From: Olivibacter domesticus
Lineage (GTDB): Bacteria > Bacteroidota > Bacteroidia > Sphingobacteriales > Sphingobacteriaceae
DNA length: 64,000 nt
Reading direction: 5' to 3'
Assembly (NCBI RefSeq): GCF_900109575.1
Contig: NZ_FOAF01000011.1
Span: 62,001-126,000, forward strand
Made by a program: the position numbers and the translations under genes
Notes under the pieces: generated by a model
The model's input: only the letters and a program-made list of their open reading frames with translations
Databases searched by the model: none
Told to the model about the DNA's origin: nothing
Shown here: positions 39,692 to 60,193 of the stretch, in pieces
How positions within the stretch are numbered: position 1 is the first letter of the stretch
Layout of the letters: the number at the start of each line of letters is the position of its first letter

Positions 39692-39816
39692 AATTTTTAT
39701 TTTTCCTGGTCCTCAACGAACAATCTTTAACAGCGCTAAAGATCAAACTATAAGTACGTGATACGAGATATTTCATCTTTATTTAATCACTATTTTAGCA
39801 AGTGGTAAATTCTTCG

Positions 39817-43174: not shown

Positions 43175-44530
43175 TTATTGAAATAAGCAATTCCAGATAA
43201 TGTTAAAAACGTCCGTAGCTTCTATTTGAGAACAATTATTTAAATCCGGATGACTAATAATGACAGGATAGTATTCTTTGGAGACATTTGCACATCCATG
43301 TGAACCTCTAACCAAATCAGCATTTAGCGGGATGACGTCTAATACATACCGCAAACCTAATTTTTTCCGGAGCAATTTATAGGCCGCTCTCCATTTAGAT
43401 GTCATGAAAAGCTCAACAGGATCATATCCTGGCTTTTTATGAATATCTACTACTCTCGCATAGTCTGGAGCTTTTTCATTATCCAACCAAAAATAATAGG
43501 TAAACCAACTTTGCTGATCAGCCACCACAACAAAATCACCTGCTCGCTCATGTTGTATATGATGCGTAACTTGTTGTTCCCGATCCAGTACTAGTTCTAT
43601 TCCTGCTATGTTTTCAAGCAAAGCACGGACTTCTTGTTCCACAGCCTTATCATTGACATATACATGTGCAATTTGATGATCTGCTACAGCAAAAGCTTTG
43701 GAAGCGCCAGGATCAAGCAATTCCAAACCCCTTTCGACTCGAACTTGCAAAAGCCCATTTTCTCGGAGTAGCCTATTAATATGAATCGGATTATTTACCG
43801 GGGAAATTCCGTATTCAGACAACAATAATATCCGGGTGTTTTTCTTTTCATAGTACCCCACTAATTGCTTTACGATAGCATCGATCTCTTTGAGCTCTTT
43901 AGATATGGCATCCACATATGGACCAACTTTCTGTAAACAATAGTCTAAATGAGGCAAATAAATAAAGCTTAGTGTTGGATCGTAACGTTCGTCGGTTAAG
44001 ATAGCCGCATCTGCGATCCACTGGGTAGATTTCACATTCGCATTAGGCCCCCAGAACTGGAATAAAGGAAACTGTCCAAGCTCTTGTTGCAGATAATCTC
44101 TTAATTCTGCTGGGTGGCTATAACAATCTGGAATTTTTCTTCCATCTGCCAAATAATTCGGTCTGGGGGTGACAGAAAAATCAACTTCCGAATACATATT
44201 GTACCAACCAAACAGCTGTGAACAGGTAAACAGGGGATCTTGCCGTTTTGCTTTTTCCCATATTTTTTCACCCTGCACCAGTTTATTAGATTGTTTCCAA
44301 AATTTAACTTCACAATCTTCCCGATCATACCAACCATTCCCAACAATACCGTGTTCTTCGGGCAGTTTGCCTGTTAGAAAGGTTGATTGTACCGCGGTGG
44401 TTAAGGCTGGCAGCATTGGGCGAATAAAACCAACATGGTTTTTCGCAATGTATTCTTTTAAAAATGGTGTATATTCTCCTATGATTGAGCTAGAAAGGCC
44501 CACAACATCTATCACTACCGTTTTATTCAT
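43175..44530 (-). CDS. eboF: EboF, nucleotide pyrophosphatase/phosphodiesterase-like protein
   Basis: A 451-residue protein of the alkaline phosphatase/nucleotide pyrophosphatase fold. Metal ligand Asp8 (VVIDVVG), the nucleophile region PALTTAVQSTFLTGKLPEEHGIVGNGWYD (Thr44), the metal sites around LPHLDY and LLSEYGISPVNNPIH, and the late RGSHG box are present. No signal peptide is seen, so it acts in the cytoplasm. As the last gene of an eboA-F run it may hydrolyse a phosphodiester or pyrophosphate intermediate of the still unknown ebo metabolite. It is 10 bp after eboE. Confident in family; the precise reaction is unknown. Confidence 0.9.
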   Translation of the reverse strand: MNKTVVIDVVGLSSSIIGEYTPFLKEYIAKNHVGFIRPMLPALTTAVQSTFLTGKLPEEHGIVGNGWYDREDCEVKFWKQSNKLVQGEKIWEKAKRQDPLFTCSQLFGWYNMYSEVDFSVTPRPNYLADGRKIPDCYSHPAELRDYLQQELGQFPLFQFWGPNANVKSTQWIADAAILTDERYDPTLSFIYLPHLDYCLQKVGPYVDAISKELKEIDAIVKQLVGYYEKKNTRILLLSEYGISPVNNPIHINRLLRENGLLQVRVERGLELLDPGASKAFAVADHQIAHVYVNDKAVEQEVRALLENIAGIELVLDREQQVTHHIQHERAGDFVVVADQQSWFTYYFWLDNEKAPDYARVVDIHKKPGYDPVELFMTSKWRAAYKLLRKKLGLRYVLDVIPLNADLVRGSHGCANVSKEYYPVIISHPDLNNCSQIEATDVFNIIWNCLFQ

Positions 44531-44540
44531 AGCACTGAAT

Positions 44541-45752
44541 TTATATCAATTGGTCATTTACCCAGTTAATTTCTCTAGCAATTGATGCTACCAGTGGCTG
44601 CTTCAGCGCTTTTGGTAATACATCCCAAGTATAGGTCTCCACTTCGAGATGCCTAGAGATAGCATCTTGCTGATATATTTCCAAAACTTCTTTGATATCT
44701 TCCTGGGTAGATTCAAGGTGACCATAATTTTCCACAAATAAGGGTACATGATAATGCGCGCGCCATTCATTAACGGCCATATTTTCTACATCTAACAGTG
44801 CAGCTGGAAGATCTTTGTATCTTATTAATGTATCGTCTGCCGTCTTGGCGATTACCTGATGTAAATAAGTATCTTCATTAAAGACATCGAATGTTTTTTT
44901 AAGTTCCATCCTAGCGGATAGCAAAGGTGGAAGTTTCGCCTTTAAAGCTGCGCTGATTTGTATTTTCCCGATATGGATGCCATTTGATCTTATTTCTTTT
45001 ATAATCTCGCCGTGCGATTCATAGCCCAATGCAAAATGGCAAATATCATAACATAAACCTATATGCCTTTTAATTGCGGTCTCTACTTCGGCCTCATTCA
45101 AATTAAATGCTTTTGATAAAATTGGAATACCGATAGGTAATAAATCATTGCGATACCAATCAAGAAATTCTTCACCATTTTCTAATAAACCATCCGGTTC
45201 AGGTTCAATATCTAGATGTAAATAGTTTCCCGTTGTCTTCTGAATCCGCATTAAATGCGCTGCAATTGCTACAATGTGCTCGGTAGCTTGGCGTTTTATC
45301 TCCTTAAATCCACTATTGGAAAAATTGTGCCAATGCCTATAGCTTAATGGCGAAGTAGAAACGCCTCCATCCACGTTTTTAGGTAACAGCTCCTTTAAAA
45401 TATCAAATAATCGCTTCGTATAGTCAACACGCATATCAGTAGACCAATCAGGAGCGTGTACCTGGTCTTTTACTTTCGTTTGATGGAATGCACCATAAGG
45501 GAAGCCATTCATCGTAAATACGTACAACTGATTTTGAGTGAGCCAGTCCTTAAAAGCAAGCAGTTGGGCTGGTTTAATAAGCTCTAAACTAGCCTCATTG
45601 GAAAGGCGCAAGCCAATACCCATCGATGCATCCGGAGAAACCAGTTTTTTTACTTCAGGAATATAGACCTTTAATGCTTCAAAGTGTGATTGCCAGGTTT
45701 CTCCGGCATGAATATTTGTACAATACGTTAAGTGTCCTTTTTTAACAAACAT
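44541..45752 (-). CDS. eboE: EboE, TIM-barrel metabolite traffic protein
   Basis: A 403-residue protein with the xylose-isomerase-like TIM-barrel fold, starting MFVKKGHLTYCTNIHAGETW, the usual EboE N-terminus. Likely metal-ligand segments are YLHLDIEPEPDGLLE, GLCYDICHFALGYE and HIGKIQISAAL. It has no signal peptide. It sits 13 bp after eboD and 10 bp before eboF. In cyanobacteria the ebo genes are needed for a scytonemin precursor to reach the periplasm; what EboE does chemically is not known. An epimerase or isomerase on a sugar- or cyclitol-like compound is the natural guess (inference). Confidence 0.9.
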   Translation of the reverse strand: MFVKKGHLTYCTNIHAGETWQSHFEALKVYIPEVKKLVSPDASMGIGLRLSNEASLELIKPAQLLAFKDWLTQNQLYVFTMNGFPYGAFHQTKVKDQVHAPDWSTDMRVDYTKRLFDILKELLPKNVDGGVSTSPLSYRHWHNFSNSGFKEIKRQATEHIVAIAAHLMRIQKTTGNYLHLDIEPEPDGLLENGEEFLDWYRNDLLPIGIPILSKAFNLNEAEVETAIKRHIGLCYDICHFALGYESHGEIIKEIRSNGIHIGKIQISAALKAKLPPLLSARMELKKTFDVFNEDTYLHQVIAKTADDTLIRYKDLPAALLDVENMAVNEWRAHYHVPLFVENYGHLESTQEDIKEVLEIYQQDAISRHLEVETYTWDVLPKALKQPLVASIAREINWVNDQLI

Positions 45753-45765
45753 AATAGTGAATAAA

Positions 45766-46947
45766 TTAAAATTCGGCTAATTCGTATATTTCTTGGTTGA
45801 TGCTCATCTTTTGTAAAAGATGGATTGCCTCTTCAATTACAACCGTATTCATTTCATGAACCTCGTACCCTTCCCCGATGGTGCTTAAAAGCATAACCGT
45901 TAACTGCCCTCCCAAATGTTCTCGGAACTCCTGAAGTCCGCCCAGTAATTTTCGCCTATTGTCTTCTGATACTAATATTTCATTAAAAACAGGCAAGTTA
46001 AAGCGTAGCAAAAGCCTTAGTATACGCATACATTCATCCTTCGTTAAAGAGCCCACTAAAAAAGAGTACACACTATCGATGGCAATACCAATGGATACGG
46101 CCTCTCCATGTATAATTTCAAATTCACTTAGCTGCTCAATCTTATGAGCACTCCAATGACCAAAATCGAGCGGCCGTGATGAGCCCAGTTCGAAAGGATC
46201 ACCACCACCTATATGTGCTATATGCAAATTGGCACTGTGTTCTATCAGGTATTGCATGGCAGCCTTATCATGTTGCATGATGCTATCTGCCATCTCCTCC
46301 AGCCATAAAAAAAAGTGGCTATCTTTAATGAGCGCTACTTTGATAGCTTCAGATATCCCGGAGACCCAATGCCTGTCGGTCAAGGTCGTTAGGAAATGAT
46401 AATCATTGAAAACTGCTACGGGAGGGACAAACGTGCCTAAAAAGTTCTTCTTTCCAAAATAGTTAATCCCATTTTTAACACCTACTCCCGAATCGCCTTG
46501 CGATAGCACCGTAGTTGGAATACGTATGTGTTTAAGACCGCGATGCGCTACCGCGGCCGCATATCCTACCAAATCTAGAACACTTCCGCCTCCGATAGCT
46601 ATTACATAAGAGTGTCTATCAATCTTATAATGATTGATGGCCTCAATAATTTGATAAAAATAGTTAAGATCATTTTTAGCTACCTCACCGCCTGCGACAA
46701 TAATTTTCTCCTTAACTACTTGAATATTGTTTGCTACTTTAAAATATTCATCAATTTGAGAAGCTAAGGCTGGATGAAGAAAATGAACTTGCTCATCAAT
46801 TACAAATAATAAGCGTTGCGTAAAACCCGGTTGCCGTACCGCTTCAAGCATATTTAGCAATGCAGCATTTTGCGATGAGAAAACATGCTCCGTGAAGTAA
46901 ATATCATATTGAAAATTAACCTGAAAACTTTGTCGTAAAACATTCAT
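45766..46947 (-). CDS. eboD: EboD, 3-dehydroquinate synthase-like sugar-phosphate cyclase
   Basis: A 393-residue member of the dehydroquinate synthase superfamily. NAD-binding GGGSVLDLVGYAAAVAHRG (119-137), the IPTTVLSQGDSGVGVKNGINYFGKKN segment, and zinc ligands Glu200 (SGISEAIK), His264 (DFGHWSAHK) and His280 (HGEAVSIGI) are all present, so it should be an active cyclase. It is EboD rather than the aroB enzyme because of its place in the ebo run and its divergent substrate loop. The superfamily also makes valiolone-type and aminocyclitol rings, so a carbocyclic product is possible. Confidence 0.92.
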   Translation of the reverse strand: MNVLRQSFQVNFQYDIYFTEHVFSSQNAALLNMLEAVRQPGFTQRLLFVIDEQVHFLHPALASQIDEYFKVANNIQVVKEKIIVAGGEVAKNDLNYFYQIIEAINHYKIDRHSYVIAIGGGSVLDLVGYAAAVAHRGLKHIRIPTTVLSQGDSGVGVKNGINYFGKKNFLGTFVPPVAVFNDYHFLTTLTDRHWVSGISEAIKVALIKDSHFFLWLEEMADSIMQHDKAAMQYLIEHSANLHIAHIGGGDPFELGSSRPLDFGHWSAHKIEQLSEFEIIHGEAVSIGIAIDSVYSFLVGSLTKDECMRILRLLLRFNLPVFNEILVSEDNRRKLLGGLQEFREHLGGQLTVMLLSTIGEGYEVHEMNTVVIEEAIHLLQKMSINQEIYELAEF

Positions 46948-46984
46948 AGTGGAAGTATTAATTGGTTAAACAAATTCAAAAACG

Positions 46985-47884
46985 TTAAGTAACTGCGAAA
47001 AATCGACCTAACCACCTACTTAATGGCAGCATTAAAAGCATAATTGCTGCCAATAAAAAGACACCTGAAGCCAGCGCCCATCCTGCGTTCATTACAATCA
47101 AGCTGAGTATACCAGCCCTCACTGCTTCCCTTATATTTTTACCTGAAGAATTTTTTATTGCTTTCCATAAAGGGCGGTAAACCATCCATGCAAAAATCAA
47201 TAGCGTTGTAACGGTTAAAAAAAAATGCTGGTTATGATTTGCCAGCGAGCCAATTGCAGCTATAACAATTGCATATAAAACCGCTGCAACGAGCAAAGGC
47301 TTTTTGGTGCTTCCCGACACTTCTCCCCTACTGATTAGCGTTATAGCCCCTATATATAAGATGGGAACAAGCGCCACGTACCACATAGCAATTACCTGAT
47401 TTGGAAGAATACTGACGCCAAGCAGGAGATTTAAACCTCGACACAAGCCCATATTTGGTGGGCCGAGCATTGCATGATGTTTGCCCCATTTGTTGTATAG
47501 CAATGCCGTAAGAACAATAAAAACAGCTAAATATCCTGCAGTAAAATTTACCAGAAAAGCAGCGATCACACCCATCACAAAAAAAACAGTTCCAAGGATG
47601 AAAGCCCGTTGAATAGGTATTATTCCGCTTGGTATTGGTCTTTCCGGGCGTTCTATTTTATCAAGGGCAGCATCAAAAACATCATTGAACACGATCCCTC
47701 CACCATAGAGTCCAATAGTAGATACACAAAGTAGAACAATAGTATCCAATGCGACCGTCGAATGGTCTATAAAAAAAATGCCCGATAAAGAAATACCTGC
47801 TAATACATCTGTGATGGACGTTATTATATTCGCAGGTCTTAACAAGCGCATATACGCTTTTAGGAGACATGAAGTTTCAGGCAT
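46985..47884 (-). CDS. eboC: EboC, UbiA-like membrane prenyltransferase
   Basis: A 299-residue integral membrane protein with about eight to nine hydrophobic helices and the first UbiA aspartate motif NDVFDAALDKIERPERPIPSG (about 67-87). The second Asp-rich motif is less typical, as is common in EboC. UbiA enzymes attach isoprenoid chains to aromatic or sugar acceptors at the membrane. In the ebo cluster this is the only clearly membrane-embedded Ebo protein, so a lipid-linked intermediate made or carried at the inner membrane is plausible. It begins 2 bp after eboB ends. Confidence 0.92.
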   Translation of the reverse strand: MPETSCLLKAYMRLLRPANIITSITDVLAGISLSGIFFIDHSTVALDTIVLLCVSTIGLYGGGIVFNDVFDAALDKIERPERPIPSGIIPIQRAFILGTVFFVMGVIAAFLVNFTAGYLAVFIVLTALLYNKWGKHHAMLGPPNMGLCRGLNLLLGVSILPNQVIAMWYVALVPILYIGAITLISRGEVSGSTKKPLLVAAVLYAIVIAAIGSLANHNQHFFLTVTTLLIFAWMVYRPLWKAIKNSSGKNIREAVRAGILSLIVMNAGWALASGVFLLAAIMLLMLPLSRWLGRFFAVT

Positions 47885-47886
47885 CC

Positions 47887-48873
47887 TTAACTAATTATAA
47901 TGGAAGACTTATCTATTCTCGGTTGTTGACCACCACGTAAAATGCTATTACCGGCAAATTTCTCGCGTTGGTCTATTTGTTTCATAGCTAGAAATGATGT
48001 CACGTCCAGTTGACCACTTTGGGCAAAGGCGGTAATGGCATTCTGGTATGTCACCAATTCGATATCTTTTTCAGGTATTCCATAGGCTTTCATTAAGGCT
48101 GCCGTTTTAGGTACGGCGAGCGGATCACTGATACCCCAATCTGCTGCTGAGTTGATCATAATTCGTTCAGAGCCATACTTTTTAACGAGCGCCACCATGC
48201 GTTCATTTCCCATTTTTGTAAAGGGGTAAATGGTAAAAGCTGCCCAAAATCCTCGATTCAGGACTTCTTCAACGGTCTCTTCATTATTGTGATCAATAAT
48301 AACATGCGTGGGATTTAGCTGATGCTCTAATGCAATTTCCATACTTCGAATGGTACCCTTTTTCTTGTCACGATGGGGCGTATGTACCTGTACAGGTAGT
48401 TCGGCTTGTTTAGCTAATGCTAACTGTAAGCGGTAGTATTTTTCTTCAGCTGGGGTTTGATCGTCAAAACCAATCTCACCAATGCCGACCACGCCCTCTT
48501 TATAGATAAATAAGGGTAGCAATTCCATTACTTGCTCTGCTAAGTCGATATTATTTGCTTCTCTAGCATTTAAGCCTATGGTGCAATAATGTTTGATACC
48601 AAACTGAGAGGAGCGGAATCTTTCCCAACCGATTAAACTATTATAATAATCCCTAAAGCTAGCTAAACCCGTTCTAGGTTGCCCTAGCCAAAATGCCGGT
48701 TCTATAATGGCAACAATCCCTGCATCGGCCATTGCCTGATAATCATCCGTTGTTCGAGAGGTCATATGAATATGGGGATCAAAAAAGCACATCCCCTTAA
48801 TCGCCTCCAAATTCAAAACCTCCGTTTTTATAGTTGACATCTGGGTATTCATAAATGATTGATTTCCACACAT
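47887..48873 (-). CDS. eboB: EboB, TatD-family metal-dependent hydrolase
   Basis: A 328-residue amidohydrolase-like TIM barrel of the TatD type. Metal ligands are seen in CFFDPHIHMTSR (Asp32, His34, His36), GIGEIGFDD, VQVHTPHRD, VIIDHNNEE and INSAADWGISD. The start is uncertain: ATGs occur at residues 1, 8 and 12 before the conserved core. It is the EboB protein of the ebo run by order and sequence, not the DNase TatD. The substrate is unknown. It lies 32 bp after eboA and 2 bp before eboC. Confidence 0.9.
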   Translation of the reverse strand: MCGNQSFMNTQMSTIKTEVLNLEAIKGMCFFDPHIHMTSRTTDDYQAMADAGIVAIIEPAFWLGQPRTGLASFRDYYNSLIGWERFRSSQFGIKHYCTIGLNAREANNIDLAEQVMELLPLFIYKEGVVGIGEIGFDDQTPAEEKYYRLQLALAKQAELPVQVHTPHRDKKKGTIRSMEIALEHQLNPTHVIIDHNNEETVEEVLNRGFWAAFTIYPFTKMGNERMVALVKKYGSERIMINSAADWGISDPLAVPKTAALMKAYGIPEKDIELVTYQNAITAFAQSGQLDVTSFLAMKQIDQREKFAGNSILRGGQQPRIDKSSIIIS

Positions 48874-48905
48874 AATTTTATTTTTTTATTTGATTCTTAG
48901 GAAAC

Positions 48906-49598
48906 TTAGAAGCGATTTTCTTGTCCTATCATATTCCACAGTAATGGGTTCACGGTCCGACCTGCGGCCAGACGCTCTTGCGCATAATCAACAAGCGACA
49001 GGATAAGCGTTTCATTCATACGTGCGTGTAAACCTAGGATCCTACCTAAATCTTTATCTGTAAAAAAGGCCTTTAAAACAAGTTGATTCCAAGCACTTTC
49101 GGGTAAATAGTTTGCCGGGTAAGGGTTTTCATACATGATAGCATCCAAAACGGAACCTATATTGCTTCGAATCCCTTCCGTACATCGGAGCACCCACTCA
49201 TTAGGATGTTCCAATACCGATAGCGCACTATAGAGGGCAATAAGTTCATTCATGTCCGCATGCATAAACAACCGCTCAATTAATGCCATATAATCTATAC
49301 GACCCTCGCTTTTTACAGCTAACAATAGGCCCAAACGCGCAAGTCGATGTTTATCCCAGTCCGAAAATTTAAATCCAGACATTAATTGGCCTACTTCTTT
49401 TTCTTGAGGTTGGCTTACATGAACCCGTTCTTTTCCTAACTTCCTATTTATTGCCACAAATGGGGTAAAAATTTCAGCTGGATTGCTTTCGATGGCATCC
49501 GCTTGCCGTAAAAACCAAGTCAACTCGGTCGCCTCCAAATTTGAATGGATAATAGTTGATATAAGTGCTTTAAAAAGTGTTCTATCTTCGACATTCAT
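48906..49598 (-). CDS. eboA: EboA domain-containing protein
   Basis: A 230-residue, mostly helical soluble protein with no enzyme motif; helix-rich segments include WDKHRLARLGLLLAVKSEGRIDYMALIERLFMHADMNELIALYSALSVLEHP and MARMNETLI-like repeats near the end. The assignment rests on this pattern (resembling a HEAT/armadillo-like scaffold) together with its place directly before eboB-C-D-E-F. It may act as a scaffold for the other Ebo proteins (inference). The function is unknown in any organism. Confidence 0.85.
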   Translation of the reverse strand: MNVEDRTLFKALISTIIHSNLEATELTWFLRQADAIESNPAEIFTPFVAINRKLGKERVHVSQPQEKEVGQLMSGFKFSDWDKHRLARLGLLLAVKSEGRIDYMALIERLFMHADMNELIALYSALSVLEHPNEWVLRCTEGIRSNIGSVLDAIMYENPYPANYLPESAWNQLVLKAFFTDKDLGRILGLHARMNETLILSLVDYAQERLAAGRTVNPLLWNMIGQENRF

Positions 49599-49644
49599 TT
49601 TATCTCTTTATTTTTTATTATTCATGTTGGTGTCCTTAAGTAGT

Positions 49645-50013
49645 CTAGAAACCAGCAAAATAATCAAGTCCCAATGCCGCACTAATAATAAGTAGTCCAA
49701 AAAACTCACGCGTTTTTTCTATATAGGGCTTGGAAGCTTGCATACTCTCCACGATACTTGGCCGGTTATATTTGGTAATCCAATCCAAAACACCATCTTT
49801 TGCAAAAAAGAGGATTACAGCATAAAAAAGATAAAACCCGATAGCGATTAAGTAGAGTGTATAGAAATATCGATCAAAGATGGTTAAACCACATAACAAA
49901 GCTGCTACAACATAAATTGGCACCCATAACCAAGAGTCTTTATCATTTAAATTGACATAGGCAAAGAGCATAAACGATAAAAAGAAAATACTATTTAGGA
50001 TAATTAACCACAT
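49645..50013 (-). CDS. TMEM220-like small membrane protein
   Basis: A 122-residue protein with four hydrophobic helices (about 2-18, 27-45, 50-70 and 100-118). AYVNLNDKDSWLWVPIYVVAALLCGL resembles the signature of the transmembrane 220 family (PF15071), in which an N-D-x-D-x-x-x-W motif is followed by a tyrosine-rich helix. The family has no known function. It lies 18 bp after the DUF1080 gene and 46 bp before eboA, so it is most likely part of the same operon and may be an extra membrane partner of the ebo system. Confidence 0.75.
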   Translation of the reverse strand: MWLIILNSIFFLSFMLFAYVNLNDKDSWLWVPIYVVAALLCGLTIFDRYFYTLYLIAIGFYLFYAVILFFAKDGVLDWITKYNRPSIVESMQASKPYIEKTREFFGLLIISAALGLDYFAGF

Positions 50014-50031
50014 GATATACTCTTTTTAATG

Positions 50032-50820
50032 CTACAAGGTCTTCAATTTTATATCTTTAAACGCCACTTGCATTGGTGGACCTACATGAATCTGAACACC
50101 AATTGAACCAGACATTTTGCGGTTTTTAGTATCATTATCTACCACATCACTCATCAAAATGCCATTCACATAATGTTGTAATCGATTTCCTTTTGCCACG
50201 ATACGACATTCATTCCAATCGGCCTCTTTAATCGAACTCTTAAGCTTATCTAGATCTCCTAATGTATCTTTCACAATAACAGTTGTCCATGCGTTGTTCT
50301 TCGACTCACCTTGCTCATCATCTGGTACCTCTACAGCCTGACCTCGATAGGCAAGGGTTGTTCTTTTACGTTCCTCATAGTTCTGTCCCGTGTACTTGTT
50401 TTTTCCATCGATATCAGCCTGATAGCCTTTTAAAGCATTTGGAATACTTGCTACCGGGTCGCTCCTGTAGTTGATTCCGCTATTTCCTTCTGGCGAGATT
50501 TTATACATTAATGTTAATTCAAAATCAGCAGGTTCTCCACCTTTCCAAATGATAAATGTATTTCGCTCTAAAGGTTTATCAGAGGCTTTCCGTTCGCCAA
50601 TCAACATGCCGTCTTCCACACGCCAGTAAGCTGAATCTCCCTCCCACCCATCTAGGGTTTTACCATCAAAAATGTGCACGAACCCACTATCGGCCTGTTC
50701 ATTATCGGTGGGTGTGTCCTTCTGTTTATCCGCATTTGATTGACCACAGGCAGTGATGATCATCACTGGGAAAAGGACCAGTAGTCCGCTTCTTTTTAAA
50801 TATTTAATTGTTTTTTTCAT
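50032..50820 (-). CDS. DUF1080 lipoprotein (3-keto-disaccharide hydrolase domain)
   Basis: A 262-residue lipoprotein with lipobox ITAC (Cys25) and one DUF1080 beta-jelly-roll domain (PF06439). Family boxes are FVHIFDGKTLDGWEGDSAYWRVEDGMLIGE, GNSGINYRSD, GYQADID, WNECRIVAKGNRLQHYVNGI and GSIGVQIHVGPPMQVAFKDIKLK. DUF1080 proteins hydrolyse or hydrate 3-keto-glycosides or act as sugar-binding lectins, in the periplasm. It is the first gene of the run that continues through TMEM220 and eboA-F, and is separated from the 3-keto-sugar-type genes upstream by 270 bp containing a repeat. Confidence 0.88.
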   Translation of the reverse strand: MKKTIKYLKRSGLLVLFPVMIITACGQSNADKQKDTPTDNEQADSGFVHIFDGKTLDGWEGDSAYWRVEDGMLIGERKASDKPLERNTFIIWKGGEPADFELTLMYKISPEGNSGINYRSDPVASIPNALKGYQADIDGKNKYTGQNYEERKRTTLAYRGQAVEVPDDEQGESKNNAWTTVIVKDTLGDLDKLKSSIKEADWNECRIVAKGNRLQHYVNGILMSDVVDNDTKNRKMSGSIGVQIHVGPPMQVAFKDIKLKTL

Positions 50821-51090: not shown

Positions 51091-52260
51091 TTAACCAGCA
51101 TGGGTTTTCCAATTTACATCTGTTGTTTGCCACTTTTTTGAAGAAGCCGAGTTTAGTACTGCCTCACAGACTTTCTGTGTTTCAAAAGCATCTTGAAAAG
51201 TAGGAGCGCACGCTTCCCCTGATTCGAGACTCTTTAGAAAATCAGCTACCTGATGTACAAAAGAATGTTCATAACCGATGGACAACCCCGGCACCCACCA
51301 TTTATTCATATAAGGTTGATCTCCATCTGTAACATGTATAGAACGCCAACCTCGTGTAGCGGCATCGTCTTCATTATTAAAATATTCCAGTCGGTTTAAA
51401 TCGTGGAGATCCCAACGCAGCGAACCCTTTTCACCATTAATTTCAAAGGTGTATAAAGCCTTGTGTCCGCGGGCAAAACGTGTAGACTCGAAAAGTCCTA
51501 ATGAGCCGTTTTCAAAATGGCAGTGAAAGATACAAGCATCATCAATTTTCACGTCTTGTAGCTTCCCTGTATCTTCATGTAAACGTTGTTTCACAAAGGT
51601 TTCCGTTACCGCAGAAACATCTCTAATACCGCCATTCAACCACATGGCGGTATCAATACAGTGCGCTAACAAATCTCCGGTAACACCAGATCCGGCAGCA
51701 TCCGCATCCATGCGCCAAAAGACGCTCCCCCCCTGTGGAAGGTTTTCATTAATGGTCCAATCTTGTAGGAAATTAGAACGGTAATGAAAAATTTTACCCA
51801 ACTTGCCCGTGTCAACTATCTTTTTTGCTAGGGTTACCGCAGGAAGGCGACGGTAATTATACCATACCGTATTTTTAACCTTTGCTTTATCAACCGCATC
51901 AACCATTAATTGCGCTTCTGCCAAGGTTCTTGCTAGTGGCTTCTCGCATAAGATCATTTTTCCCGCTTCCGCCGCCGCGATGGCAATTTCCGCATGCATA
52001 TTGTTTGGGGTACAGATATCAATGGCGTCAATATCATCTCGTTTAATTAGCAATTTCCAGTCTGTTTCAAACGATTCATATCCCCATTGTTGTGCAAAAG
52101 CTGTTACCTTTTCCCTGCTTCGTGCGCACACAGCTTTAAGAACTGGCTGGTAAACCAGTTCGGGGAAAAAATTAGGTACTCTTCTATAACCATTTGAATG
52201 CGTTCTACCCATAAAACCGCAACCAATTAGTCCTATTCTAATCTCTTTTTTCATCATCAT
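51091..52260 (-). CDS. Gfo/Idh/MocA family oxidoreductase
   Basis: A 389-residue NAD(P)-dependent sugar dehydrogenase-like protein. The Rossmann motif GLIGCGFMG is at about 10-18, the family EKPLA box ([14 protein letters not shown], catalytic Lys) is at about 110, and the C-terminal sandwich contains [17 protein letters not shown] and [13 protein letters not shown]. No twin-arginine signal is seen, so it is cytoplasmic. Members oxidise or reduce sugars at C2, C3 or other positions; with the neighbouring genes, 3-keto-glycoside chemistry is the best guess. Its ATG overlaps the isomerase stop codon (ATGATG), so the two are coupled. Confidence 0.92.
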
Positions 52261-53327
52261 TTTATATTTTGATTGAAATTATCTTCGTTTTCATACCATC
52301 CATGCAGCTCCCGAACCTGAATCATCGCAGCTAAAATATTATTCCATGTATCTTGCTTTTCCATCACCTCATTTGGAAACATGCAACCATCCCAACAAAT
52401 ATGTCTAAAGGCTTTGGTTAGATTTCCTTGATCATCCCTCAACCAGTAGCCCGCATCCTTTCCAATATCAAGCTTCCCGTTCGGGTCATTCGCTAAACAA
52501 TGGCGTCCCGTTTTATCATGAGAGCCAGACCCGAAAACAGTACCATCGTTTTGAGCAATATGAAAATCTATCGTCCAGGGTCGTAACCTTGCTGTCAGTT
52601 GCTTAAGCGCATTGCTAAGCTCTTCTCTATCTTTCCATTGAAAATCTGCTGGTAGGATGCGGTCCTCCGGACTGTTATAACCCAACAAATACAATAGTGT
52701 ATGCGCCATATCAGCTTGAAAACCGATATTAGGTCTATCCACTTGTTCCAACGTATCCAACATGGTCTTCCAACTGTGCATGCCTCCCCAACAAATTTCT
52801 CCTTCCGCTGCTAGTTGTTCCCCAAAACCAGCGGCCACATCACAGGCCTCCCGAAAAGTCTGCGCAATCATTTTTGTGCTGTGTACAGGGTGTTCTGCCC
52901 AGGCGCTGACACTTGAAGCAGAATCTATACGGATAATATTGGTCGTTCGTATTCCAAGCTTTCGCAGCTTTTCACCAAAACGACAGGCTCGCCGTACTAC
53001 ATCTACAAATCGTTTTCTTTCCTCTTCAGACCCCATTGCGGCGCCCCCAGAAGGAGGCCAAACAGGAGCTACCAGCGTGCCAATTTGTAATCCAAAATCG
53101 CGTACTTTATCATGCAGTTTTTTAATCTCACCTTCAGAAGCATCCATCCTTATATGTTCATCAAAGAGACCTAAATCAATGCCATCAAATTTTACTCCGT
53201 TCACTTCTGCCGCCGCTGTTTTCTCCAATAGGGTATCCAATGGAATGATGGGCTCAGATCCATCTCCTTTGCCCACTATTCCGGGCCAGGTTGCATTATG
53301 TAATTTTGGGAAATTATTCTTTTTCAT
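52257..53327 (-). CDS. sugar phosphate isomerase/epimerase-like TIM-barrel protein
   Basis: A 356-residue xylose-isomerase-like TIM barrel. Metal-ligand segments can be seen: [35 protein letters not shown] and [25 protein letters not shown]. No signal peptide. Such proteins often act with Gfo/Idh/MocA dehydrogenases in cyclitol or keto-sugar pathways, for example epimerising or eliminating a 3-keto-glycoside. It overlaps the dehydrogenase gene by 4 bp and follows the cupin gene after 10 bp. Substrate unknown. Confidence 0.88.
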
Positions 53328-53337
53328 CAGTATGCAA

Positions 53338-54549
53338 TTAAAAGTCTATTTTTAAATCAGGATTGTCTGGACCGAAATGTTTCAGTATCACAATAGGATC
53401 TGTTGTTGAATGATTCGTTATTTGTACCCCGGCTATAGCAGCCTTTTCGGAAACAAAAAACTCATCGTTCGTAAGTTGATCGTAACGTATTAACGCAGGT
53501 GTTTCAATATCCCAAACACCCATCTTCCCCCTACCTTGCATCACAATTAATCCATAGGCCGCATTGTCGTAAATAGTTACCGTTTGCTCAGGTAAAATGG
53601 TCAACTCTTTTGCACTAAATGCCCTTGATTTATAACAAATCCATTTTTCTATATAACCCTCTTCCAGCATTTCGCTCATCTCTTTAACCGGTAAAGGAGC
53701 CATAAAACGATTCTTCATCATATTAGGATCAAGGTTTAAATCCCAATCGATTACATCTAACAATTCATCAAGATCACCAATCTTATCTTTTGGCGTACCG
53801 TTCCAGAGCAGTTCCTCCGGTATGATCGCTTCATTTACCAAGGATTGATACATAGCAAATACATCCGAGGCCTTTTGTGGTTCATAGGTACATAAACTAC
53901 CTGGGGCATGCAGCAGACCGGGAGGTACATCCCAACCCGTACCTGGCTCAAGACGGTAAGCTTGAGAATAATTCGTGATTTTATTATCGCCCTTCGTAAA
54001 ATTCGCGAGACAAGTCTTTATTTCGTCCTTGCTGGTACCAGGTGCAATTCCCATAAACGTGTAAGGAAAATCACCACCATGATTGTTTAATTGGGGAGGA
54101 AAATAATAGGCTTCCGGCTTTCCCTTTTGATCTATCAGCGCTGCTTTTTCATCATTATGGTGTATATGATGTGGAAGAGGGCCCATATTATCAAAGAACT
54201 TTGAGTACATCGGCCAACTTTGATATTCATTCCATAATCGTGTTCCTATGAGTTCCCCCTTCAACATATCGACTGCATCTCTGAGAAGAGCCTTATGCGT
54301 GTTTTTTCCATCATCATATACGATAAAACTTAATCCCTCATGCTCACCCGTTAACGGTCCATTTTTTGCAGGTGTAGTGGATGATAACCATCTTTCATCT
54401 ATTCCTCCACGTTCACCTCCCAAAACATAGTAATCGTCTGGATGTAATTTAATTCTTCGTCCGGGTACACAGAAAGATCTGGGCACCCAAGTAGGTGCTA
54501 ACCGTAATATGCCTTTTCCGTGTTCTATTGCTTTTTGTATAATATTCAT
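53338..54549 (-). CDS. cupin-type isomerase, mannose-6-phosphate isomerase-like
   Basis: A 403-residue protein with a double cupin layout. [15 protein letters not shown] (about 125-139) is a metal-binding histidine cluster, and [16 protein letters not shown] (about 210) resembles the PPGTLHA box of type I mannose-6-phosphate isomerases. The C-terminal cupin contains [21 protein letters not shown]. It is not the housekeeping ManA by sequence pattern and sits between a DUF4432 epimerase and a TIM-barrel isomerase, so it probably isomerises a keto-sugar or uronate in that pathway (inference). Cytoplasmic. Confidence 0.78.
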
Positions 54550-54581: not shown

Positions 54582-55652
54582 TTAATCTACATGTTCCTTA
54601 AGCAGATTTTCAATAGCTGTTGGATGATTCAGCACCTTGACTGCTATATTATATTCTTTGCGTTCGCCCGGTTGGAGGAATATTAGCTGACTATTTTCCC
54701 GTACTTTTTTCTGACCAACAGGCGGGTGTGTCCCTGGCTCCAACCCTGTTACATATTCGCCTTTTCCCCAATGTTGCCAATTTGTTAGCCACGGCAACTG
54801 ATCCTTCTGAAAATTTAAGGATACTGCTATTCCTAAATTTTCATTATGTATCCCACAACTACAAGCACCTTTTCCGTCACTTTTCGCGTCGATGAATACC
54901 GCTTCCTCGCCACTACCATTGTGATCTTGGATTGGCCCAACACATCTCTTGAAAGCCTGCCCTTCTTTAAAAATTTTATTGCCATCACCCACTTCACGGG
55001 GGTTCCACGATCCCGACCACAACAGCCTACTACCTTCGTCAACTAAGGGCCAACCAAAATTAAAGTGGTAAAGCAACATGTGCGGAGCCGGACAATTCCC
55101 ATGATTGGTAATCTCATCGTGAATATAAATCGTTGGCTCTCCTAAGATGACACGAATGGTTCGTGTTAAGGCTAAATTGGGCCCCAGAGGATGTCCTTGT
55201 CGCATCACACCCGTGATACTCATTTCTGGATGCTCCTGCTGAAAATCGGGCTGTTTAATCGAGATAATTTCGGCTGGGCAATTACTAATTTGATCATGAA
55301 GTCCTCTATCACCATATTCATCGCTTTCAGGTCCACCTATATGGGTAAGGCCACAGGTAACCAATAAGCCTCCCCCGAAAGTTCTCAGCCAATCAGCGCC
55401 CTTGTCTGAAAACGGTTGCGGTCTCGTTACACCCACCCTGCTTAGCCAGCATAAACTGTGCTGATTGAAAAATGCCTCCGCAATATCCATCGCTCTATCA
55501 ATAACTACTTTAAAGCGCAGGCCAGCACCCGTATTTATCCACGCAATGCGCGTACCTCTACCGGCGCCATTGTCCAGAACAGCTGTTTCAATACCGCCCA
55601 CTTGGGCGGTATTTGATACTTTTTCAAGCCAGCTTTTATTCTTTGCGTCCAT
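54582..55652 (-). CDS. DUF4432 family aldose epimerase-like protein
   Basis: A 356-residue galactose-mutarotase-like beta-sandwich. Features include RVVIDRAMDIAEAFFNQHSLCWLS-type text near 45-70, RTFGGGLLVTCGLTHIGGP (about 88-106), GDRGLHDQISNCPAE (His acting in catalysis), and MLLYHFNFGWPLVDEG (about 195-210). The family rearranges sugar ring anomers. It is cytoplasmic and begins 3 bp after the cytochrome gene, clearly in the same operon as the cupin and TIM-barrel genes. Its substrate is presumably the sugar released from the imported glycoside. Confidence 0.82.
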   Translation of the reverse strand: MDAKNKSWLEKVSNTAQVGGIETAVLDNGAGRGTRIAWINTGAGLRFKVVIDRAMDIAEAFFNQHSLCWLSRVGVTRPQPFSDKGADWLRTFGGGLLVTCGLTHIGGPESDEYGDRGLHDQISNCPAEIISIKQPDFQQEHPEMSITGVMRQGHPLGPNLALTRTIRVILGEPTIYIHDEITNHGNCPAPHMLLYHFNFGWPLVDEGSRLLWSGSWNPREVGDGNKIFKEGQAFKRCVGPIQDHNGSGEEAVFIDAKSDGKGACSCGIHNENLGIAVSLNFQKDQLPWLTNWQHWGKGEYVTGLEPGTHPPVGQKKVRENSQLIFLQPGERKEYNIAVKVLNHPTAIENLLKEHVD

Positions 55653-55655: not shown

Positions 55656-58340
55656 CTATTTATTTTTGGGTTTAAACAGCTCACTATCTTTATTTCCGCC
55701 TGACTTTAAAAAGGCCATTAAGTCCTTCAATTCATCGGCATTTATTACGTTGATAGTGCCGGGAGGCATCATAGAAACTTCAGCAGTTTTGACACTTGTT
55801 ACGTTTTTCTTTGGGATCTCTTTTAGCACTTGAGGGGCGTATGGATTTTGTGAGATATAGTAGGTTTTTTCATCTTCATTTTTTAACCTACCCAACATGG
55901 AGCTACCGTCTTTTAGCTGGAAAATGGTAGATGCGTACTGATCGGAAATGACATTATTAGGCTCAATGATAGACTCCAATATATCTTTCGCCGTAAACCG
56001 CGTACCCAATTGCGTTAAGTCGGGACCAATGGATCCACCTTCTCCACGAACGGTATGGCATGATCCACAACGAATGGCCGAGAATAGCATCGCACCGCGT
56101 TTAAAATCACGATCACCAGAATCCTTTTCGACAATTGGCAATGCATCTTCCATTTTCCAATTTTTACCAGGTCCTTTTGGTCCTTCTCCCTCAAAAGCCA
56201 AAGAAGTTCCTGTACTACTAAGGAGCGAATCACCCGATAGCTTATTATAATGAGCATATTGCGATTTAGAGACTCTTTCTAATGCCATCTTCCGTGCCTT
56301 ATCTATAAAACCGATATAGCTGTTGCCCCCTTTATAACCAAAGGCATCATAAAACCATTTAAAGTAATTTTCATATAGCTCTTTTGTCCAACCTTCATTA
56401 GCAACACTCAGTACAGTGGCGAAGTATATCTGCTGTGCAGGAGGCATTTTGGCTAACATGTTGGCTATATCCAGCCCATATTGCGGATTTCGAAGAATTA
56501 AATCAGAAGATTGGGTAACGTTTTGATTCGTGGTATCGTCCTTTACGGTGTAGAGTAAGGGGATCGTTTTTTCAACGACATTTCCAGCTCCAATCTTTAC
56601 TAATATTTTACTAAGCTGCTGATCTAGCGTGTTGATATGGGAGGGGTATAAACCTGCAAGATGATTAACGAGCTCTTCTCTATCTTGCTTCTTCGGAACA
56701 CCCATACGGGCTATTGCCAACTCATACGCTCTTAATAGATTTTGCTTCATCACAAGCGGCAAATCAGAAATCGCTACTGTTTCCATTTTTTTCAACATCG
56801 CAGGTTGTAGGGAAGCATCTCCATTTCTTGCTAAGGCAATCATGGCCTCCGTTAAAGCCGTTACGTTGGTTTCTCGCAAAGCAAGATCTTTCCAAGTACT
56901 TACCGGTTGATGTTCAATTGCTATGCGCGCCGCATAACGTATAAATCGATCTTTATACTTCAAGTAGGGCCAAAGCTTTTCAGCGGTTCCTTCAGCAGAT
57001 AATTTGTGATATCCTTCTAACATTTTCCTTAATCGCTGCTTCTCCGTTTCTTTTTCTATCTTCCTTTCCTTTAAATCTATTTTTTGATAGTCTTTATAAT
57101 AAACGCGGTATAAATCTGACTCTAGCTTTCTACCACCACTCAGAAAGTACAAAGCACCATCGGGACCAATTTCTCCATCCGTAAGCGCCAAAGGAGAACC
57201 AGAAATAAATTCTTCGGCTTTAGCCTCATAGCTTGCTCCTTTAGGCTCCATGTGAACAGCATAAATAATCCCAAAGCTCCAGTCGAATGCTAGAAGACTA
57301 TTACTATACTTTTCCGGAAAGCGTGCATTGTGTGCAAACATGATATTTGTTGGTGATCCTTGTCCAATATTCAGCATGGCAGGTAAATTATCAGGATAAT
57401 TCGGCGACCATTTGTCGTTTCCTTTACGCCAACCAAACTCCGCTCCACTCGGCACATGACAAATCCGTGTAGGACGATACCAAGGCATTCCAAAATCCCA
57501 CTCCATATCCGAGTCGTACGTAAATAATTCGCCTACATCATTAAAAGCCAAATCGAAAGGATTTCGGAATCCTGAGCTGATCAGCTCCCACTTCTTCCCA
57601 ATAGAATCTGTTTTGGCAATCCATCCACCTTTATCGTGGCTATCAGCGTCATGTCCTTGAGGATCCAAAATAATCGGGAACAGGTTATCCCGTTGTCCAT
57701 TCGGTGGCAAGCGGTAACTATCCATTTTTGGTAGATCTGTAAAATTTCCTGCCACCACATATATCGATTCTTTATCTGGGCCTAAAACGACACTATGTGG
57801 TCCATGTTCACCTGAACCGTCGAGTGCCATGAGCTGCGTGATTTTATCGAATTGATCGTCATTATCGGTATCTTGTAGCCTGTATAAGCCACTCCCTTTC
57901 TTAAACTCGTCATTGGCTTTATGATTTACCATGACGTACAAACTATTGTGAGCCCATAAAAGCCCTTGCGCATAGCCCATTCCTACCTTATTTTTTGTGG
58001 TATCTTTTTTTTCGGAATCCTCCTTCGGAAAATCTAGCTTTTGAACGTTTGGTTTTACGGTTGAATCAGCGCCTATCGGTGGCAGTTCAACCCTATAAAG
58101 GGCACCAAATTGATCGGACGTAATCATACGTCCCTTATTATCAAAAGTCATGGCGACCCAAGAACCTAATTCATTATCAGAAGGGCTATAAATATGTTCC
58201 GCAACGAAATCTGGCGGCAACACAATTTTCTTCACCTTTGGATTTACTTCTACTACTTTTTCTGATGCACGGTGACAGCCAAATAGGCTCGACACTGCAA
58301 TCAAAACCAGCCATATAGAAATTTTCTTATACAATTGCAT
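55656..58340 (-). CDS. c-type cytochrome lipoprotein with a sugar-dehydrogenase-like propeller (PVC type)
   Basis: An 894-residue lipoprotein (lipobox LFGC, Cys22). An N-terminal beta-propeller like soluble PQQ sugar dehydrogenases covers about 35-380 (FVAEHIYSPSDNELGSWVAMTFDNKGRMI; FRNPFDLAFNDVGELFTYDSDMEWD). A helical HEAT-like middle (about 390-700) and a C-terminal cytochrome c domain follow, with heme motif CGSCH at 758-762 and an axial Met in the MMPPG box near 857. It resembles Planctomycetes-type cytochromes that occur beside Gfo/Idh/MocA and DUF1080 genes. It may take electrons from periplasmic sugar oxidation. The ATG at 58340 is preferred to a TTG two codons earlier. Confidence 0.88.
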   Translation of the reverse strand: MQLYKKISIWLVLIAVSSLFGCHRASEKVVEVNPKVKKIVLPPDFVAEHIYSPSDNELGSWVAMTFDNKGRMITSDQFGALYRVELPPIGADSTVKPNVQKLDFPKEDSEKKDTTKNKVGMGYAQGLLWAHNSLYVMVNHKANDEFKKGSGLYRLQDTDNDDQFDKITQLMALDGSGEHGPHSVVLGPDKESIYVVAGNFTDLPKMDSYRLPPNGQRDNLFPIILDPQGHDADSHDKGGWIAKTDSIGKKWELISSGFRNPFDLAFNDVGELFTYDSDMEWDFGMPWYRPTRICHVPSGAEFGWRKGNDKWSPNYPDNLPAMLNIGQGSPTNIMFAHNARFPEKYSNSLLAFDWSFGIIYAVHMEPKGASYEAKAEEFISGSPLALTDGEIGPDGALYFLSGGRKLESDLYRVYYKDYQKIDLKERKIEKETEKQRLRKMLEGYHKLSAEGTAEKLWPYLKYKDRFIRYAARIAIEHQPVSTWKDLALRETNVTALTEAMIALARNGDASLQPAMLKKMETVAISDLPLVMKQNLLRAYELAIARMGVPKKQDREELVNHLAGLYPSHINTLDQQLSKILVKIGAGNVVEKTIPLLYTVKDDTTNQNVTQSSDLILRNPQYGLDIANMLAKMPPAQQIYFATVLSVANEGWTKELYENYFKWFYDAFGYKGGNSYIGFIDKARKMALERVSKSQYAHYNKLSGDSLLSSTGTSLAFEGEGPKGPGKNWKMEDALPIVEKDSGDRDFKRGAMLFSAIRCGSCHTVRGEGGSIGPDLTQLGTRFTAKDILESIIEPNNVISDQYASTIFQLKDGSSMLGRLKNEDEKTYYISQNPYAPQVLKEIPKKNVTSVKTAEVSMMPPGTINVINADELKDLMAFLKSGGNKDSELFKPKNK

Positions 58341-58388
58341 AAACAATAAGTTGAATTCAGTTTATAAAATATTAAATGAGTATCTGTG

Positions 58389-58694: not shown

Positions 58695-60176
58695 CTACCA
58701 GCCTGGGTTCTGCTCAAATCCATTCAGCCTAGTCTCTCTTTCCGGTATAGGATACAGCAACATATATTCCTGCAGATTGTAGGAAGCTTTGCTAAGGCGA
58801 GAAAGGCGCTTTTTCTCTTCGATTCCATGCTGATTCATGATTTCAACAGCCTTACCGCTTCTTAGTAGTTGAAACCACCGATGATTCTCAAAGGCCACTT
58901 CGACACGTTGTTCATGCGCGATAGCCTCTTTAAGTTCAGCTTGGCTCAGACCGGCCAACGGTGCTAGTTTAGCCCGTGTTCTAACCTGATTAATGTATGG
59001 GTAGGGATCTCCACCTTGTTCATTGATTGCCTCGGCCAGCATAAGCAGGACGTAAGAATAGCGGTATACCGGCCAATCTTCATTAGCGCGATTGTCTTCC
59101 AAGAAGGGAGGATGATAGAATTTTTTTATGAAGGGAATTTTTCCACCAAAAGCTACCGATTCCTGAAAGGCTGCGTTGGACGCATTATCAAATAGTTGAA
59201 TAGATATATCTTTACGTACGTCACCTTCCTCATATGCATTCACAATACTTGGTGTTGGGATATTACTTCCACCCAGTTTGCCCGGAAATCCAGTAAGCTC
59301 CATCTTACCATTGCTTGGCCCGAACATGAAGATAAAATTACTAGCCTCCGTCTGCAAAGCCGCATCATACTGAATGGAAAATACACTCTCCGAATTATTC
59401 TTCGTTGCCGGATTAAAATTATCTCCGTAATTCGCCACGAGCGAATAATTCATGGTCGTCACCTGCTCTAAGGTTGATACCGCCAAATCGTACTCTTTTC
59501 TTGTCAAATAAACCTCACCAAGCAACGCAAGTGCAGCACCTTTAGTGGCCCGACCAATATCGTTACCACTATAGGATGCGGGAAGTGTTTCAATCGCTCC
59601 CTGCGCATCACTGATGATTTGATTGTAGACCTCTTCCACGCTTGCTCTACCTTCCGCAAAAGCGCTTTCAGGATCTGAAACCTCATGAATTAACAAGGGT
59701 ACTTCGCCGAAAAGGCGCACCAGATAAAAGTACTGTAATGCCCTTAAAAATTTGGTTTCGCCAATATACCTGTTCTTCAATGCCTCATCCGCAAACGCCA
59801 CAGCATCTACTCTATCTAAAATCACATTGGTTTGCTGAATATTATCATAAAGGATTCTCCAGCAGGTATTCACGTAGTTATTGGTAGAGGTGATCATAAA
59901 CTCGTCGATTTCTTCCCGTTGCTGTGCGCCACGATCGGTCTCATCAAATTGATAATTGGTGTTATCTGCGCGCATTTCTGTAAGCGAATAAAAGCAGTCA
60001 TTCGTATACAATCCCTGCAAGGATGCATAAGCACCGTTTACCGCACGTAAAATCTGCCCTTCATTTTCATAATAGTTGCCGTCACTAGAAAAAGAATAAG
60101 GTTCCACATCCAATAAGTTTTTACAGGATGATACCACCAATAGTAGACAGGCCATTATATAGATTCTAATTTTCAT
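58695..60176 (-). CDS. SusD/RagB-type surface lipoprotein
   Basis: A 493-residue partner of the SusC-like receptor encoded just upstream. Lipobox VSSC (Cys18). Family features are LDVEPYSFSSDGNYYENEGQILRAVNGAYASLQ, FLRALQYFYLVRLFGEVPLL, the TPR helix around ATKGAALALLGEVYLTRKEYDLAVSTLEQV, and YSYVLLMLAEAINEQGG ... HEQRVEVAFENHRWFQLLRSG near the end. The TTG at 60182 is replaced by the ATG at 60176. It binds the imported glycan on the cell surface. It is 17 bp after the SusC gene and is followed by repeat copy C. Confidence 0.95.
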   Translation of the reverse strand: MKIRIYIMACLLLVVSSCKNLLDVEPYSFSSDGNYYENEGQILRAVNGAYASLQGLYTNDCFYSLTEMRADNTNYQFDETDRGAQQREEIDEFMITSTNNYVNTCWRILYDNIQQTNVILDRVDAVAFADEALKNRYIGETKFLRALQYFYLVRLFGEVPLLIHEVSDPESAFAEGRASVEEVYNQIISDAQGAIETLPASYSGNDIGRATKGAALALLGEVYLTRKEYDLAVSTLEQVTTMNYSLVANYGDNFNPATKNNSESVFSIQYDAALQTEASNFIFMFGPSNGKMELTGFPGKLGGSNIPTPSIVNAYEEGDVRKDISIQLFDNASNAAFQESVAFGGKIPFIKKFYHPPFLEDNRANEDWPVYRYSYVLLMLAEAINEQGGDPYPYINQVRTRAKLAPLAGLSQAELKEAIAHEQRVEVAFENHRWFQLLRSGKAVEIMNQHGIEEKKRLSRLSKASYNLQEYMLLYPIPERETRLNGFEQNPGW

Positions 60177-60193
60177 GTTCAATCAGTTTAAGT

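Follow-up and report, generated by a model that had tools for sequence, protein, structure and literature searches.

The Olivibacter domesticus ebo cluster, its frequent partner TMEM220 and a companion block of sugar genes

The 64,000-nucleotide stretch of Olivibacter domesticus DNA analysed here (contig NZ_FOAF01000011.1, positions 62,001 to 126,000; hereafter the window) carries a complete ebo cluster, eboA to eboF, with genes for a TMEM220 family membrane protein and a DUF1080 lipoprotein in front of it. The cluster itself is already published; its company is new. TMEM220 recurs as an ebo partner, DUF1080 belongs to a separate six-gene sugar block that is itself associated with ebo, and in other loci the place of eboD is taken by a gene for inositol-3-phosphate synthase (MIPS). 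The reading we tentatively prefer is that the ebo genes make a prenylated cyclitol lipid with TMEM220 as its membrane partner, and that this lipid would here cooperate with an extracytoplasmic 3-keto-type sugar pathway. TMEM220, the sugar block and the natural EboD replacement are new handles on ebo function. Knowing the bacterial setting of TMEM220 would also offer a biochemical clue to the animal family.

Three papers set the background. PMC5133447 gave the six-gene operon its name, predicted an isoprenoid-cyclitol compound and reported ebo from several bacterial phyla and some algal plastids. In Nostoc, the scytonemin monomer stays in the cytoplasm when ebo genes are deleted, and a lipid carrier was proposed (PMC6282210). 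UbiA-297, the EboC of the Bacteroidota Maribacter, Zobellia and Algoriphagus, comes from the same operon and farnesylates 8-hydroxyquinoline-2-carboxylic acid (8-HQA) in vitro (PMC9235831). The window agrees with the published operon in its six genes, their order and the family models (PMC5133447, PMC6282210), and ABCDEF is the ancestral order in Bacteroidota (PMC5133447). The first-pass annotation was right to call the cluster complete, as order and Pfam and NCBIfam matches bear out. The window differs by its leading TMEM220 gene and the neighbouring conserved 3-keto-type sugar block; the main text of PMC5133447 makes no mention of TMEM220, DUF1080 or inositol.

EboD and the other ebo enzymes

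An alignment of EboD with ValA (4p53, titled Cyclase) spans residues 11-376, and the two share the DFGH and KVAL.KD motifs, whereas the four dehydroquinate synthases compared have LNLGH, and KY instead of KV. The zinc ligands of EboD (E200, H264 and H280), listed as intact by the first-pass annotation, are conserved in no fewer than 20 of the 21 Bacteroidota sequences in the alignment and in all 10 of a cross-phylum set. The near full-length alignment, the ligands and the two motifs are thus common to EboD and the sedoheptulose-7-phosphate cyclases, of which ValA is one; use of the same substrate is putative, and the published tree gives EboD a separate clade (PMC5133447).

That EboD is an ordinary dehydroquinate synthase, and the run a side branch of the shikimate pathway, is barely credible. 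The NCBIfam label does read 3-dehydroquinate synthase (NF004852, 536 bits), but a distinct AroB, sharing 33% identity with EboD and bearing the motif LNFGH, is encoded on another contig of the genome. EboD reads PLDFGH in place of the AroB-type LNxGH with its preceding Arg: the Asn is replaced by D261 and the Arg, R258, is not in the AroB position, and neither residue varies among 10 EboD sequences drawn from Bacteroidota, a cyanobacterium, proteobacteria and Deinococcus. The published tree likewise sets EboD outside true dehydroquinate synthases (PMC5133447), and eboD swaps with MIPS. Judged by its motifs, EboD is not a dehydroquinate synthase, in line with the first-pass annotation, which expected an active cyclase.

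The swap was counted in 123 ebo loci, the window not included: 23 from an even sample of Bacteroidota, 20 from a plasmid collection in which 51 records have EboB, and 80 named loci. This last group holds the best 80 among 590 confirmed loci and is biased towards relatives of the Salipiger query. Nine loci, mostly duplicates of genomes already counted, were left out (L143, L159-L166), and a 111-locus set used below lacks the last 12 plasmid records. Some loci are closely related (L092 and L097, L019 and L021, the Streptomyces records), and the counts are not of independent events. eboD was found in 89 loci, MIPS in 11, both in none and neither in the stretch in 23 (Fisher P 2e-7). Eight of the MIPS loci are actinomycete, two haloarchaeal and one from Gemmatirosa (Actinomycetota, Halobacteria, Gemmatimonadota), and all come from the 20 opened plasmid-collection records, so that they do not represent 11 independent events. 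MIPS replaces EboD in 8/8 actinomycete and 2/3 haloarchaeal stretches. The actinomycete clusters, of SCO3242 type, keep EboB, EboF, a UbiA-type prenyltransferase, EboA and EboE; the haloarchaeal ebo-like clusters keep the first three, while EboA was not found in them and the EboE match was not significant.

Two unrelated ring-closing enzymes in the same slot suggest that the slot makes a cyclitol. The Streptomyces MIPS matches 1u1i (E 8e-67), an archaeal enzyme, far better than 1gr0 (E 9e-9), a mycobacterial one. Since a five-membered-cyclitol-phosphate synthase (6k96) is also among its relatives, the ring could be five-membered or otherwise. The swap strengthens the idea, put forward in the first-pass annotation and already present in PMC5133447, of a prenylated carbocyclic product. 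Literature searches combining the ebo cluster with inositol, or inositol-3-phosphate synthase with UbiA and TatD, returned no paper, most subscription papers lying outside their reach. The three haloarchaeal records (L171, L172, L173) are plasmids that carry TIM barrel genes beside those for EboB, EboF and the prenyltransferase.

All six putative metal ligands of EboB (H34, H36, E133, H164, H195 and D245), which stand at TatD-type positions, are kept in the Bacteroidota set. EboB identity to the window is 60-79% in the 23 Bacteroidota loci, 46-64% in most plasmid records and about 40-44% in haloarchaea, Deinococcus and Gemmatirosa. The first Asp-rich motif of EboC is intact (NDxxDxxxD), and its second region reads TLISRGEVSG. 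Conserved Q200, E239 and Y240 of EboF stand where typical PF01663 enzymes have metal-binding H, D and H, and its second metal site may be altered. A PDB sequence search with EboF gave phosphonoacetate hydrolase and autotaxin, both as weak matches.

TMEM220 and the sugar block as companions of ebo

The two genes leading the run had been taken as additional ebo parts, and a survey of other ebo neighbourhoods separates them: TMEM220 recurs, directly before eboA in some loci, and DUF1080 does not. TMEM220 is a frequent ebo partner, not a universal part. When neighbouring open reading frames were clustered without a prior list, it was the most recurrent non-ebo neighbour, in 19 of 111 loci (next family 15), and a hidden Markov model (HMM) found it in 20 of 123. 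It precedes eboA in the window, L008, L009 and L094; follows eboF on the same strand in L018, L019, L021, L092 and L097 and on the opposite strand in L079 and L103; and stands beside eboD in proteobacteria (L035, L036, L042, L045, L047, L049, L051, L052).

The association also holds at the level of genomes. In the even sample of 296 Bacteroidota, EboC scored over its cut-off in 24 genomes and TMEM220 was found in 40 (39 over its cut-off). TMEM220 occurs in 18 of the 24 EboC-positive and 22 of the 272 EboC-negative genomes (3.2 joint genomes expected, P 3e-13), although the two are close together in only 6 of the 18 (G000, G080, G138, G182, G130, G234). Stratified by family, the overlap was 14 against 6.0 expected (P 3e-8; seven families with both ebo+ and ebo- genomes, 16 unlisted EboC-negative genomes omitted). 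Within one family, f8, comprising 83 genomes of 82 genera, TMEM220 is present in 28/30 EboB-positive and 20/53 EboB-negative genomes (P 4.5e-7), and this persists within genome-size quartiles (P 3e-6). Among 49 named ebo+ genomes searched, drawn from 50 of the 80 named loci and grouped by record titles, 21 have TMEM220: 15/17 Bacteroidota, Rhodothermales or Fodinibius, 5/9 alphaproteobacteria and one member of the Granulosicoccaceae. Nine residues are invariant in 26 TMEM220 members (N23, D24, D26, W30, Y34, E99, R102, E103, G106), and the structural model (pLDDT 90.3) predicts four long helices; against the PDB it gave no structural relative (best E 0.75). A literature search on TMEM220, bacteria and operon found no paper, again with most subscription papers outside the search.

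DUF1080 belongs to a six-gene block that also encodes a propeller-cytochrome c, DUF4432, a protein of phosphomannose-isomerase fold, a TIM barrel and a Gfo/Idh dehydrogenase, and it adjoins ebo only in some genomes. As an ebo gene it was rejected, since both BLAST and HMM searches found it in 0/23 of the other even-sample Bacteroidota ebo stretches, 4 of which are shortened by contig ends. The HMM, built from 13 sequences, matched 4 of 123 loci, all four in its training set. Upstream of eboA, the block recurs in three Cyclobacteriaceae loci (L085, L092 from Cyclobacterium roseum, and L097, the latter two of one genus), where DUF1080 lies inside the block and not, as in the window, at the head of the ebo run. 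Orthologues there are 54-59% (propeller-cytochrome c), 50-53% (DUF1080), 55-57% (DUF4432), 76-79% (403-aa isomerase-fold protein), 67-70% (TIM barrel) and 72-74% (Gfo/Idh) identical to those of the window.

The 403-aa protein served as a marker for the block. At 72% identity or more it is found in 9 of the 296 genomes, all among the 24 EboC-positive ones (P 3e-11). In 8 of the 9 it is unlinked to ebo: the two are on different contigs or, in the case of G249, separated by 0.46 Mb. DUF1080, DUF4432, the marker, the TIM barrel and Gfo/Idh are present in all eight of these unlinked stretches, and the propeller protein in 7/8. Weaker relatives (34-50%) occur in nine further genomes, all under the EboC cut-off, and no such block was seen at the four of these loci examined (L155, a 3.7-kb contig, and L156-L158). 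A further sample of 326 genomes from the class, which overlaps the first, has 7 marker genomes, all of them ebo+ and one (G599) new. Of the 18 f8 genomes with the marker, 15 are EboB-positive against 6.5 expected (P 5e-6; size-stratified P 1.7e-5), and in 5 of the 15 (G622, G654, G683, G685, G688), some of which may be of the same species as named loci, the two lie within 25 kb on one contig.

The marker has no Pfam or NCBIfam match, and its PDB sequence matches are none better than E 0.69. Its model (pLDDT 84.5) is predicted to have the class I phosphomannose isomerase fold (Foldseek 5zuy, E 4.8e-18; 1qwr_B, TM 0.62/0.77). Invariant H128, H130, K144, E146 and H214 resemble, by motif, the phosphomannose isomerase active site. 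In its gene content the block looks like a 3-keto-type sugar pathway, given this fold, the likeness of Gfo/Idh to levoglucosan dehydrogenase (NF052479, 346.6 bits, under the cut-off of 650) and the activity of DUF1080 relatives, which hydrolyse 3-keto-glycosides (PMC9007349). The pathways of BT2157 and CCNA_01705 described in that paper share the DUF1080 lipoprotein and a Gfo/Idh dehydrogenase with the window, but differ from it in the propeller-cytochrome c, DUF4432, the isomerase-fold protein and the coupling to ebo. No LacABC-type dehydrogenase was recognised among the scanned window proteins; a genome-wide search was not made. SusD relatives (38-39% identity) lie upstream of the block in L147, L153 and L154. 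In Haladaptatus, genes for a DUF1080 protein (PF06439, 175 bits), a Gfo/Idh protein (37.7% identical to the window's) and a TIM barrel stand beside an archaeal ebo-like cluster.

The ebo product and its possible use

Under the reading we prefer, EboD would form a cyclitol by closing the ring of a sugar phosphate (most likely sedoheptulose 7-phosphate), EboE, EboB and EboF would rework it, EboC would attach a prenyl chain in the membrane, and TMEM220 would handle the resulting lipid as a membrane partner. The lipid might then serve, directly or indirectly, the neighbouring 3-keto-type sugar pathway, which would start outside the cytoplasm and lead from SusCD uptake through the propeller-cytochrome c and DUF1080 as a putative 3-keto-glycoside hydrolase to DUF4432, the isomerase-fold protein, the TIM barrel and Gfo/Idh. 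The block would be a frequent user or companion of ebo; what it degrades, its need for the ebo product and the direction are points that we infer. Genes for isopentenyl diphosphate (IPP) isomerase-like proteins in 10/111 ebo loci and for VTT-domain membrane proteins in 7/111 fit with a prenyl lipid that has to cross the membrane.

Several observations weigh against this scheme. The second Asp-rich motif of EboC is degenerate and lacks the usual Asp residues, and the IPP isomerase-like and VTT representatives, one of each scanned, fall under the NCBIfam cut-offs for IPP isomerase and UptA. TMEM220 is absent from 12/12 ebo+ cyanobacteria and 4/4 ebo+ Halomonadaceae searched, and the 20 ebo- genomes of f8 noted above have it nonetheless. 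The block marker is missing from 15 of the 24 EboC-positive genomes. Conversely, three f8 genomes (G625, G641, G652) carry it without EboB or EboC, and the block might therefore do without ebo; each of these assemblies is fragmented, which makes absence weak evidence. In Haladaptatus only Gfo/Idh has a BLAST match to the window, DUF1080 and the TIM barrel having none, and the resemblance may be convergence. Finally, the associations were stratified by family or genome size, and within-family kinship does not enter the statistics, as no tree was used.

The published view offers the most serious alternative, namely that a glycolipid-like ebo carrier moves small molecules into the periplasm and that the links to TMEM220 and the block reflect shared habitat or genome lifestyle. 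We regard it as possible but clearly less probable than the prenylated cyclitol lipid serving a sugar pathway. The scytonemin monomer retained in the cytoplasm of Nostoc ebo deletions (PMC6282210) speaks for it, as do the greater mean size of f8 genomes with ebo (5.6 vs 4.9 Mb) and the three genomes with the block and without ebo. However, both associations survive genome-size stratification in f8, and that of TMEM220 also survives family stratification. TMEM220 is moreover the top recurrent neighbour, beside ebo in Bacteroidota and proteobacteria alike, and the block physically adjoins ebo in the window and in Cyclobacteriaceae. An extension of our preferred reading would make ebo a service module common to bacteria and haloarchaea. 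Its prenylated cyclitol lipid would be needed by extracytoplasmic systems that oxidise or move sugar-like substrates, and TMEM220, whose family takes its name from a vertebrate membrane protein, would be the membrane partner of ebo. This extension goes further and is speculative enough that we think it unlikely.

It is improbable, by a further step, that ebo yields a redox-active, quinone-like prenylated ring or a cofactor for extracytoplasmic oxidoreductases, these being the propeller-cytochrome c here, GSDH with cytochrome c in proteobacteria and ScyD/ScyE in cyanobacteria and Streptomyces. GSDH-type genes do occur in 15/111 ebo loci, 13 of which also have cytochrome c genes (a single representative of each type was scanned), and ScyD/ScyE family genes stand beside three Streptomyces plasmid clusters (L032, L167, L178) whose stretches also contain cydC/cydD or quinol oxidase genes. 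In the even Bacteroidota sample, by contrast, propeller genes were found near ebo in 4/23 loci and in 5/33 TMEM220-only controls, which is no enrichment, and the Nostoc data are read as transport by their authors (PMC6282210). The idea of propeller or redox clients, without support from this single Bacteroidota control, was demoted to a rival. Pyrroloquinoline quinone (PQQ) speaks on both sides: pqqC is present in 0/24 ebo+ Bacteroidota, including the window's genome with its propeller protein, but in 5/8 ebo+ proteobacteria and 1/2 ebo+ cyanobacteria tested, and PQQ as the missing link was rejected. Even less probable is a dedicated secondary metabolite, a farnesylated quinoline or prenylated aromatic, that acts in defence and is unrelated to the sugar block. 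The in vitro farnesylation of 8-HQA by EboC relatives (PMC9235831), the effect of the Pseudomonas EDB locus on nematode grazing (as reported in PMC6282210) and a gene pair for a ferritin-like and a large protein that adjoins ebo in 5/111 loci of three phyla favour it. Yet the Pfam scan of 25 window proteins, which began after the first 20 kb, revealed no quinoline-forming gene, and the ebo core is shared across very different neighbourhoods.

A GSDH, ScyD/E or DUF7133/propeller-type gene is present in 38/123 ebo loci. A census of c-type heme genes gave 21/123; it had no control and was not used as evidence. Multicopper oxidase genes are also found beside the Streptomyces plasmid clusters. DUF7133 propeller proteins near ebo were scanned for L017, where the protein is fused to ThuA, and L029, with L013, L016 and L022 in the same cluster; the hosts are genomes of the Bacteroidota phylum and an alphaproteobacterium. 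The ferritin-like pair (PF12902, tested for L010) is found in L010, L026, L027, L031 and L104, from Bacteroidota, cyanobacteria and a betaproteobacterium.

Layout and surroundings of the gene run

The eight open reading frames from DUF1080 through TMEM220 to eboF (43175-50820) all lie on the minus strand (Table 1), and the coordinates, common direction and gaps of 2 to 46 bp given by the first-pass annotation were reproduced; counted from the eboF end, the gaps are 10, 13, 37, 2, 32, 46 and 18 bp. From this spacing alone, co-transcription of the eight genes is likely. Promoter-like matches were no more frequent than in shuffled sequence (44 against a mean of 46.3). The same-direction run extends upstream of DUF1080 into the other five block genes (51091-58346), whose mutual gaps are -4 to 32 bp; Gfo/Idh and DUF1080 are 270 bp apart. 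EboC and EboE score above the cut-offs of their ebo equivalog models, whereas EboA falls under the stricter family model NF035937 (204.9 bits, cut-off 320) and, by these scores, would be an EboA domain protein outside that subfamily. The propeller-cytochrome c exceeds the cut-off of TIGR02603 (100.6 bits, cut-off 68.15) and not that of TIGR02604 (79.8 bits, cut-off 122.2).

Table 1. Genes of the ebo run, the sugar block and the adjoining SusCD pair in the window
Feature	Coordinates	Strand	Evidence
eboF, PF01663 phosphodiesterase-like	43175..44530	-	PF01663 209 bits; 22 sequences aligned
eboE, TIM barrel 'metabolite traffic protein EboE'	44541..45752	-	NF035939 495.7 bits, cut-off 250
eboD, putative sugar phosphate cyclase	45766..46947	-	PF01761; Zn ligands E200, H264, H280; D261, in place of N in the AroB of this genome
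eboC, UbiA-family prenyltransferase	46985..47884	-	PF01040; NF035940 372.8 bits, cut-off 250
eboB, TatD-like metal hydrolase	47887..48873	-	PF01026 55.8 bits
eboA	48906..49598	-	EboA domain NF035938 162.1 bits, cut-off 50
TMEM220 family membrane protein	49645..50013	-	PF15071 93.7 bits, gathering score 27
DUF1080 (3-keto-disaccharide hydrolase family) lipoprotein	50032..50820	-	PF06439 130 bits, gathering score 26.8; lipobox-like ITAC
Block: Gfo/Idh dehydrogenase (levoglucosan-dehydrogenase-like)	51091..52260	-	NF052479 346.6 bits; PDB relatives
Block: xylose-isomerase-like TIM barrel (SPI)	52257..53327	-	PF01261 53.6 bits
Block marker: 403-aa protein, predicted class I phosphomannose isomerase fold	53338..54549	-	Predicted model and Foldseek
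Block: DUF4432	54582..55652	-	PF14486 324.9 bits
Block: PVC-type propeller and cytochrome c, one CxxCH, lipobox-like N-terminus	55656..58346	-	TIGR02603; PF00034 35.5 bits
SusD-like protein, upstream of block	58695..60182	-	PF07980
SusC-like TonB-dependent receptor, partner of SusD	60194..63667	-	PF07715, PF13715

Downstream of eboF, a run of alpha-L-rhamnosidase/arabinofuranosidase genes (30084-43071) encodes two glycoside hydrolase (GH) family GH106 proteins, a GH78-type, a GH127 and a six-hairpin rhamnosidase-like protein, so that the ebo run is flanked by the SusCD sugar block on one side and a rhamnose-type glycan locus on the other. Further along, at 28737-29768, lies a gene for a 343-aa regulator-like protein with no Pfam match at E 1e-8; relatives of about 40% identity are found in L148, immediately ahead of the unlinked block, and in L085, close to ebo.

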